Of a DNA stretch of 64,000 bases, positions 1 through 58,247 are shown piece after piece. The position numbers and the translations under genes were made by a program. Source of the DNA: Pseudanabaena sp. (lineage in GTDB: Bacteria; Cyanobacteriota; Cyanobacteriia; Pseudanabaenales; Pseudanabaenaceae); contig QBMK01000018.1 of assembly GCA_003249035.1 (NCBI GenBank), positions 17,229-81,228 of the forward strand, given 5' to 3'. Numbering within the stretch: position 1 is the first letter of the stretch; every line of letters starts with the position of its first letter. Below the pieces are notes generated by a model that searched no databases, was not told where the DNA came from, and saw only the letters and a list, made by a program, of their open reading frames with translations.

Positions 1-21
1 TGCCAGTAAATTTGATATAAA

Positions 22-121
22 GGGAACTCCAAGAAAAAAACGATCAATATAAAAACAAAAATATGGCGGCGGGCGAAGCCCGCCGCCATATTTTTGGGAT
101 CAATTATTTTTTGCAAGTCCC
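22..121 (-). repeat. Family A palindromic element, copy A1
   Basis: This 100-bp element is the reverse complement of a second copy at 15780-15879. Read on the minus strand it begins GGGACTTGCAAAAAAT and ends CTTGGAGTTCCC; the other copy has nearly the same two ends. The two ends are also imperfect inverted repeats of each other (GGGAACTCCAAG.A6..GATC against GGGACTTGCA.A5..GATC). The middle is a 20-bp perfect stem with loop GAA (56-96). It lies just beyond the 3' end of the sugar transferase gene, next to a family B element. No coding capacity is visible, so it is best read as a MITE-like element. Confidence 0.75.
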
Positions 122-126
122 TAATG

Positions 127-238
127 TATGAGCTTAGAATAATATAGAGCAATACAAAATTGGTGCAGATAGCTTTGCCATCTGCACCAATTTTGTGGGT
201 CAAGTCTTGAAAAGAAGTCTATAATTTTTGCTTAATAT
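127..238. repeat. Degenerate family B palindromic element, copy B4
   Basis: A 16-bp perfect stem (arms 155-170 and 180-195) carries the word ATCTGCACC, which also occurs in the arms of B1, B2 and B3. The outer parts are recognisable but eroded: GAGCTTAGAATAAT on the left resembles the GCTCAGTATAAT end of B1, and AATTTTTGCTTAATA on the right resembles its AATTTTGCTTAGCTA end. The boundaries are approximate. It directly follows element A1 and ends about 25 bp before the sugar transferase stop codon, where it may act as that gene's terminator. Confidence 0.5.
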
Positions 239-263
239 CTTAATCTTAGAAAGATAAAAAATA

Positions 264-1190
264 CTAGCAAGCTCCAAATCCAGAGAGGACTTTAGGAATC
301 GTCATTAACAAAATTTTTAAATCTGACCACAAAGTCCAGTTACAAAGGTAAGTTAAATCACAATCAGTAACCGCATCTAGATCAAGCATTGTTGATCGGG
401 CGCTGACTTGCCAAGCGCCTGTTACCCCTGGTAATGAATTCAATCTTCTTTTGCGATCACCATTAATACGCAAAGCATCATATAAAGCCCAAGGACGAGG
501 TCCAACCAGACTCATTTCACCACCCAAAACATTGAAGAGTTGGGGAAGTTCATCAAGGCTATACTTTCGCATCCAACGACCGACATTTGTAATCCTTGGA
601 TCGTCTTCACATTTATGAAGTCCGGTTTGTCCACTCATCACAAGATGATGCAATTTGTCTGCATCAGTAATCATGGTACGAAATTTAACTATTCTAAATA
701 ATTTCCCACCTTCACCTACACGCCATTGATGAAAAAATACTGAGCCTCTTGACGTACTAGCAATAATCACAGCTAATGAAATCATAACTGGACTAAGAAT
801 CAAGAGAATGAACAGAGCTGAGAACCAATCCAAAGCCCGCTTTACCATCCAAGTAATCGGTTTGATTTTTTGAGGTAATTCATCTGTATGAGGCAAGTTT
901 AATAATACGAATTTACCGGATTTTAAGCACACATCAGCTAAATTCTTAAGTTTAGTTTCTCCAATTTCTGCCTCAACTCGAATCAGGTTTAATTTTGACT
1001 GGCTATAATGACCAGATCTATTTTTACTCGGTGTAAAAGACTTAAAAACACTCAAGCAGTCACGAACGAATGAACCCAAGAGAATCTTGCTTTTCTTAGT
1101 ATTGAACATTGAATTAGATATACAAGAAATATCTTTGGGATGCTTTTTCAGTGCAGTTAACTGTATTTTTTCTGTAATAAGCCCAGTCAT
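264..1190 (-). CDS. Exopolysaccharide sugar transferase (undecaprenyl-phosphate glycosyl-1-phosphate transferase type)
   Basis: A 308-aa protein whose C-terminal 200 residues form a bacterial sugar transferase domain. A membrane helix (about residues 117-145) is followed by KFRTM, then SLDELPQLFNVLGGEMSLVGPRP and LPGVTGAWQVSARS, the usual signatures of this fold. The family moves a sugar-1-phosphate from a nucleotide sugar onto a polyprenyl phosphate at the inner membrane and so starts a capsule or exopolysaccharide repeat unit. The N-terminal 110 residues have no multi-helix region, so this is a short form without the N-terminal membrane domain of WbaP-like enzymes. No other polysaccharide genes are visible, but the window edge is near. 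The sugar specificity cannot be read from sequence. Confidence 0.9.
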   Translation of the reverse strand: MTGLITEKIQLTALKKHPKDISCISNSMFNTKKSKILLGSFVRDCLSVFKSFTPSKNRSGHYSQSKLNLIRVEAEIGETKLKNLADVCLKSGKFVLLNLPHTDELPQKIKPITWMVKRALDWFSALFILLILSPVMISLAVIIASTSRGSVFFHQWRVGEGGKLFRIVKFRTMITDADKLHHLVMSGQTGLHKCEDDPRITNVGRWMRKYSLDELPQLFNVLGGEMSLVGPRPWALYDALRINGDRKRRLNSLPGVTGAWQVSARSTMLDLDAVTDCDLTYLCNWTLWSDLKILLMTIPKVLSGFGAC

Positions 1191-15465: not shown

Positions 15466-15747
15466 ATGAGTACTTCAGGCAAATCGGTTTCAGCTTGTCG
15501 GTTGTGTCAGCACTACAATCCTGAAGGAAGAAGGGGCGGGTTTTGTGGGAAATTAGACGTTCCTGTTATTCCTACATGGGAAGCTTGTAGCCTAGCGGCA
15601 CATCCCTTTGAGATGTCTTGGGATCCTAGCAATGATTTTAACTCCCTTCTTCATGAATCATTTCATGAATCAATTCCTAAAAAGAATGAAGAAAACATAG
15701 AACTGCAAGATATCAGTACTAGATCTCTCAGTTTCTCTGAGTATTAG
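15466..15747 (+). CDS. Small four-cysteine protein, function unknown
   Basis: A 93-aa protein with CRLCQHYNPEGRRGGFCGKLDVPVIPTWEAC, that is C11-x2-C14-x12-C27-x13-C41. This spacing suggests a bound metal, probably zinc or an iron-sulfur cluster. The C-terminal half is acidic and probably disordered. No membrane segment or signal peptide is visible. It resembles conserved small cyanobacterial proteins of unknown role, and I do not assign a function. The gene stands alone, with a family A element 33 bp beyond its stop. Its start is ATG at 15466. Confidence 0.75.
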   Translation: MSTSGKSVSACRLCQHYNPEGRRGGFCGKLDVPVIPTWEACSLAAHPFEMSWDPSNDFNSLLHESFHESIPKKNEENIELQDISTRSLSFSEY

Positions 15748-15779
15748 TAATGCTTAAGTTGTTATTGGTAGATTAATAA

Positions 15780-15879
15780 GGGACTTGCAAAAAATATAAA
15801 ACCCCAAAACATGTCGGCGGGCGAAGCCCGCCGACATGTTTTGGGGTTTTATATGGATCATTTTTTCCTTGGAGTTACC
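15780..15879 (+). repeat. Family A palindromic element, copy A2
   Basis: A 100-bp element with ends GGGACTTGCAAAAAAT and CCTTGGAGTTACC and a 29-bp perfect central stem with loop GAA (15794-15854). TAA stands on both sides (15777-15779 and 15880-15882), a possible target duplication. Copy A1 at 22-121 is its reverse complement in overall layout, but the stem arms differ by paired changes. It occupies the middle of the 417-bp gap before comM, where I see nothing else. Confidence 0.78.
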
Positions 15880-16164
15880 TAAACAACTGATTTTATAATG
15901 AAGAAATAAATTTAGATGTATATAGTTATTTAATTGATAACTCCAATTTCAAAAACAAACATTTTAATGAAATAAGTCTTGATTGCTCGTGCCGAACTAA
16001 TGAGGAGTTTAAATTTCTGCTATCTCAAACAACCTTAGGGTAATTGCTCAATATGCTCAAAATATACTTGCACGTCGCGTATTTATCGCTACAAGCAGCG
16101 CATTGTAAATTTGCCTGTGATAATCTTAATTGAGAATTCAAGTCTTATTTTAGATAGGTAAAAA

Positions 16165-36051: not shown

Positions 36052-36092
36052 AATAAGAGAAAGGCGGCGCTTTGCGCCGCCTTTCTCTTATT
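36052..36092. repeat. 19-bp perfect palindrome between purB and YggT
   Basis: Arms AATAAGAGAAAGGCGGCGC and its complement with loop TTT. Both neighbours are on the minus strand, and it lies about 80 bp upstream of the purB start. Its right flank (TTGGGGTTTCATTTTGTTCTA) resembles the right flank of the palindrome at 58196-58247. Confidence 0.7.
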
Positions 36093-58195: not shown

Positions 58196-58247
58196 AAGCC
58201 CAAATAGATGAAGGCGGCGCGAGCGCCGCCTTCATCTATTTGGGCTT
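58196..58247. terminator. Terminator of clpS
   Basis: A 25-bp perfect stem (arms AAGCCCAAATAGATGAAGGC... and complement) with apex GGCGGCGC-GA-GCGCCGCC, 28 bp after the clpS stop. Confidence 0.83.

Follow-up and report, generated by a model that had tools for sequence, protein, structure and literature searches.

Hairpin-carrying MITEs of Pseudanabaena and their probable mobilisation by ISAzo13-family transposases

The genome of Pseudanabaena sp. carries a family of MITEs whose cargo is a terminator-like hairpin. Our preferred reading, to which we assign a probability of roughly 0.8, is that these elements are moved by ISAzo13-family transposases and that template switching keeps the two arms of their hairpins complementary. 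MITEs as such are a known kind of element; it is the combination of mobiliser, terminator-like palindromic cargo and signs of template switching that is new.

Results

Two copies in the window

The window, a stretch of 64,000 nucleotides, belongs to a draft genome of 4.55 Mb in 60 contigs (G000). The initial annotation had pointed to a pair of 100-bp elements, and both, here A1 and A2, are indeed present (Table 1). They can be aligned end to end (81% identity, E 2.4e-19), have the outer sequences GGGACTTGCAAAAAAT and TTGGAGTT(A/C)CC in common, and differ in their inner arms by paired changes; the TAA reported on both sides of A2 was also found. The folds of both elements greatly exceed chance expectation (z about -8 to -10), and Rfam covariance models gave no match at either of them.

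Table 1. Coordinates of the elements and associated features in the window.
Feature	Position	Strand	Remarks
Contig edge	1..55		repeats flank and element start seen upstream of the 74-N gap; probable assembly redundancy
MITE copy A1	22..121	-	100 bp; bases 22-55 at contig edge, unreliable
Hairpin of A1	56..96		arms 56-74 and 78-96; loop GAA (+ strand); terminator-like on - strand
TAA target duplication beside A1	122..124		partner 19-21 is AAA in the window, TAA in the other contig end
93-aa ORF	15466..15747	+	stop about 33 bp short of A2; G035, G008 and G011 conserve it, all without the element
TAA target duplication left of A2	15777..15779
MITE copy A2	15780..15879	+	100 bp
Hairpin of A2	15794..15854		perfect 29-bp arms, loop GAA; terminator-like, both strands
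TAA target duplication right of A2	15880..15882

The start of the window directly adjoins a 74-N scaffold gap (C9:17155-17228), upstream of which the 20-bp flank and the start of the element recur as GCCAGTAAATTTGATATTAA followed by GGGAACTCCAAGGAAAAAACGATCCATATA (L141). This is most simply read as two contigs, both ending in one element, that were scaffolded with a gap and not merged, bases 1-55 of the window being probably a redundant, error-bearing end of the A1 locus and unfit for sequence comparison. When A1 is read from the other contig end, TAA is found on both sides; thus, the duplication is missing in the window probably because of an assembly error at this unreliable edge. The odd bases GATCAATATAAAAACAA of A1, where the family has GATCCATATAAAACCCAA, are likewise suspect. 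The two genes that flank A1 are not neighbours in any relative found and, in relatives assembled into few contigs, those on either side (window 1-700 and L141) lie far apart, which indicates a rearrangement near A1 in the window's genome.

A multi-copy family with target site duplications

Querying the window's own genome with A2 gave 74 matches, of which about 20 were full-length and the others partial copies or the hairpin core only; the core, being palindromic, was often counted once per strand. The search for further copies that the initial annotation had proposed thus yielded at least 20 full-length ones in this genome, to which 16 from sister species are added, 36 distinct copies altogether, gathered by similarity searches that could overlook copies too different from the query. 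The alternative outcome that it had named, only two copies, located at the same places in relatives, is not what was found. Full-length copies measure 98-103 bp, are non-coding, and end in imperfect inverted repeats (GGGACTTGCAA..AAAAAT versus GGGAACTCCAAGGAAAAA). Reversed-pattern controls in the genus-level copy search were all zero; a scan of GTDB contigs placed the exact right end in Pseudanabaena only, and plasmid, phage and viral collections gave no match. Scaffold gaps or contig ends were observed inside these hairpins (G000:C9:17155-17228, L025, L126, L134 and contig ends of G034); since the hairpins break assemblies, the copy counts are minimum values.

Identical 3-bp flanks were found in 27 of the 36 copies (13 TAA, 13 TTA and one TCA; p about 1e-41 versus 1/64). 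For L003, where the scripted trim was one base off, inspection by eye reads GGAAACTCGC...CCC between two TAA. One copy in G008 (L196) runs straight into the start of another, with TAA common to both. In G030, two copies at different places (L176 and L193) are identical over 101 bp, indicating recent movement.

Absence at orthologous loci

Sites lacking the element were sought by joining the flanks of four copies (a query of 1,118 nt). Such sites, which the initial annotation had suggested looking for, were found in relatives at both loci tested, L003 and A2. At L003, which lies in a convergent gene pair, the MITE is absent from 18 relatives. By inspection, the spacer of 15 of these carries a different hairpin in its place, in two cases (G009 and G032) within apparent other MITEs, and that of the other three, G014, G004 and G017, is only 10-12 bp long and holds neither hairpin nor MITE. 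The element at this locus in G032 (L245), which bears another hairpin and has ends TAGGACTTACGCA / TGCGTAAGTCCTA, was seen beside a remnant of the relatives' hairpin. At the A2 locus the element is absent from G035, G008 and G011, the right-hand flank aligning only loosely. The L003 comparison supports, for this one locus, a turnover of putative terminators with the MITE as one supplier.

A partner insertion sequence of the ISAzo13 family

Left-end matches that lacked the MITE right end led to an insertion sequence (IS) of 1,325 bp at G000:C21:16721-18045 (L028/L062). Its two ORFs, of 196 and 250 amino acids, match the two halves of ISAzo13 transposases (PF07592, E 1.5e-60; NF033519), and the element reads GGGACTTGCAAGAAAT...TCTGGAAGTCCC with TAA on each side. 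An IS of equal length, with TTA on both sides and an enzyme 93% identical, is present in G034. The left ends of MITE and IS score 17.5, the best of 2,000 shuffles reaching 7.5, and the right ends 11.5, the best shuffle again reaching 7.5; both elements are asymmetric in the same manner, with CTTGCAA at one end and CTTCCA or CTCCA at the other. Other ISAzo13 members in the genus have TTGATCC about 20 bases in, like the MITE, and a further cyanobacterial member in G334, with ends GGGACTTGCAAGG and GGGACTTCCAAGG, displays the MITE's left/right asymmetry. TWA is duplicated around the ISs of G000 (TAA/TAA), G034 (TTA/TTA), G029 (TAA/TAA) and further cyanobacterial members; the flanks of the G334 copy, TAA/TTA, do not match. 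For distant ISAzo13 elements, where the inverted-repeat scan gives many chance pairs, only pairs with GGG ends and TWA flanks were used. We also observed that in the G000 IS (L028:1461-2806) the transposase is divided between two frames, the first stop being closely preceded by eight consecutive A, and that the G034 gene is split alike, which suggests programmed -1 frameshifting.

The initial annotation had called for a transposase gene bounded by the same ends as the MITE. A full-length IS does exist in the same genome, the one complete ISAzo13 element found there; its ends, however, are similar and not identical, so that the actual mobiliser might be a lost relative. In G030, the genome with identical, recent copies, the search gave no ISAzo13 match. 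From the likeness of ends and duplications we consider it very likely that a transposase of the ISAzo13 family, encoded elsewhere in the genome, moves the MITE in trans. A literature search found no paper linking ISAzo13 to MITEs.

Related hairpins in the same genome

Besides this family (family A), a second set of MITEs was noted in G000 (L155-L171; for example L155 and L165). These are 98 bp long, read GGAATGATAATTT...ATTTTCATTCC with ends GGAATGATAATTTA / ATTTTCATTCC and a TWA duplication, and carry a hairpin AAAACCC...GGGTTTT in the style of family A; one of them adjoins a family A copy (G000:C30). When oriented by their ends, 7 of 12 second-family copies have the loop GAA and 5 of 12 TTC. 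Hairpins with TATAGC-type inverted ends, at window positions 36052-36092 and 58196-58247 and in L173, probably belong to a third type of MITE whose cargo is similar. Overall, 17 perfect hairpins (arms of at least 14 bp, loops of 3-5 nt) were counted in the window and none in five Markov-simulated controls; many of the 17 lie outside any recognised MITE.

This abundance of perfect short-loop hairpins outside the family, with 17 in the window and none in the Markov controls, would favour reading the hairpins as ordinary host terminators, the flanking repeat being incidental and nothing mobile. Such a reading is already contradicted by the duplications and the absent sites; moreover, the conserved ends lie outside the hairpin, identical copies in G030 have different flanks, and an IS has similar ends, all of which makes it extremely improbable. 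Equally hard to credit is a mobilisation by RAYT (Y1) transposases, as for REP/REPIN-type elements: these too are short, palindromic, intergenic and present in many copies, but a DDE element is what the inverted ends and the 3-bp duplication fit, and the genome does contain a DDE-type IS whose ends are similar. Insertion might instead replace a pre-existing hairpin, in the manner of the inverted-repeat replacement that PMC5678879 associates with IS1272. The L003 site, where relatives have other hairpins and the window's genome has the MITE, would agree with this; nevertheless, the TWA duplications that copies carry are what plain insertion would leave, that site is empty of hairpin and MITE alike in three relatives, and at L002, which lies next to a flanking hairpin, and L017, which lies between the arms of one, both arms are still in place, so that replacement appears improbable. 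The MITE reading of the initial annotation is thus upheld by the multiple non-coding copies with imperfect inverted ends, by the TWA duplications, by orthologous loci that lack the element and by the IS whose ends are similar, and we regard it as nearly certain.

Placement near gene ends

Of 35 copies, 28 have a 3' end as their closest gene boundary (expected 36%; p 1.8e-7), and 24 of the 35 lie no more than 70 bp from a 3' end, versus 26% expected; here gene ends were taken from ORF calls with the element removed and not from annotation, and expectations from intergenic TWA sites in the window. Some insertions fall exactly at a TAA stop codon. Orientation relative to the gene (13 same, 7 opposite) is not significantly biased. 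A scan for intrinsic terminators, defined by a GC-rich stem and a T-rich tail, scored A2 on both strands and A1 on the - strand only. Judged by these sequence rules and by position, it is reasonably likely that the hairpin functions as an intrinsic terminator, and some copies may have taken over termination at gene ends.

Covariation of arms and reversal of loops

The family hairpin is typically 21-29 bp with a loop of 3 nt. Both-sided changes occur in 13 of 18 arm pairs, as many being reached in 0 of 500 shuffles, and 98.1% of cells are paired; shuffles give 84.6%, and sliding the partners by 1-3 columns gives 42-53%. In 10 of 13 loop types the reverse complement is also in the set (GTA/TAC, GAA/TTC, GGA/TCC, TTA/TAA, GCA/TGC; random P 0.0005). 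Whole outer arms of 10-12 nt have been rewritten in both directions: AATTGATCCC is replaced by ATATAAAACCC, complementary to the right arm, in the outer left arm of L001, L002 and L051, and in L189 it is the right arm that is the complement of the left. Perfect palindromes could be a short-read artefact; this was rejected, as those of G030 (6 contigs) and G029 (30 contigs) are also nearly perfect or perfect.

In yeast, replication template switching leads to arm homogenisation and spacer inversion (PMC8604942). Alternatively, stepwise compensatory substitutions, favoured by selection for an RNA hairpin (a terminator or an mRNA stabiliser), could by themselves account for the paired changes of the MITE. 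Strong covariation, the existence of G-U and mismatched intermediates, the 3'-end bias of copies and the persistence of hairpins of unrelated sequence at one convergent gene pair all speak for stepwise compensation, and on a minimum spanning tree 56 arm changes are paired and 40 leave a mismatch, so that part of the data agrees with ordinary compensatory change under selection as well. However, loops are free of pairing selection and yet occur as reverse complements, and outer arms, left as well as right, appear rewritten in one piece so as to complement the opposite arm. Since pairing selection alone does not predict reversed loops, template switching is favoured and is probably the main cause of the paired changes, and an origin by stepwise compensation only seems rather unlikely.

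Discussion

We propose that an ISAzo13-family DDE transposase would mobilise these non-autonomous MITEs in trans, recognising GGGACTT(G/A)CA(A/C)AAAAT and GGGAACTCCAAGGAAAAA as the two opposite ends and inserting at TWA (TTA or TAA), a 3-bp target that would be duplicated. The long hairpin that the MITEs carry as cargo is A-rich in its 5' arms and T-rich in its 3' arms, and could then act as an intrinsic terminator. Copies would be retained mostly just downstream of genes, where they may be harmless or assume termination; where a TAA stop codon was the putative target, the duplication would restore the stop. Template switching during replication would copy one arm onto the other and flip the 3-nt loop, and would be the reason why arms stay complementary, with selection for a working hairpin as a possible added or alternative force.

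The MITE resembles ISAzo13 ISs in its GGGACTT-type ends, their left/right asymmetry and the 3-bp TWA duplication seen in most copies read, but whereas those ISs are 1.3 kb long and encode a transposase, the MITE combines a hairpin with about 20-25 bp kept from each end. SPRITE repeats of Streptococcus pneumoniae also have a terminator-like hairpin (18-bp stem), are enriched at gene 3' ends, and have been proposed as co-opted terminators (PMC3049150); they differ in their AAAA/TTTT ends, and for them duplication, empty site and related IS are not established (PMC3049150), all of which are available here. RUP, from the same species, is small, has inverted ends and duplications, and is thought to be moved in trans by the resident IS630-Spn1, whose transposase is of another family; RUP folds by pairing of its own ends and not through a central palindromic cargo (PMC3049150). 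The family described here joins SPRITE-like and RUP-like sets of features. Nezha, as cited in PMC10969869 (Zhou et al. 2008), is likewise a cyanobacterial MITE. The yeast inverted repeats altered by template switching offer a parallel in arm homogenisation and in the inversion of spacers 2-5 nt long, GAA to TTC being one case (PMC8604942), although those were in coding genes and ours are dispersed copies of one mobile element.

The family provides a MITE partner for ISAzo13 and dozens of natural replicates with which the evolution of bacterial palindromes, through arm copying and loop flips, can be measured; its hairpins also disrupt short-read assemblies, of which the first bases of the window are an example. 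More tentatively, several unrelated MITE families of Pseudanabaena might deliver one interchangeable bidirectional terminator hairpin, gene 3' ends being re-equipped by transposition and template switching keeping the hairpins perfect despite drift. Whether terminators are supplied by mobile repeats can be tested directly, since species that have the element and species that lack it at one gene pair are available.
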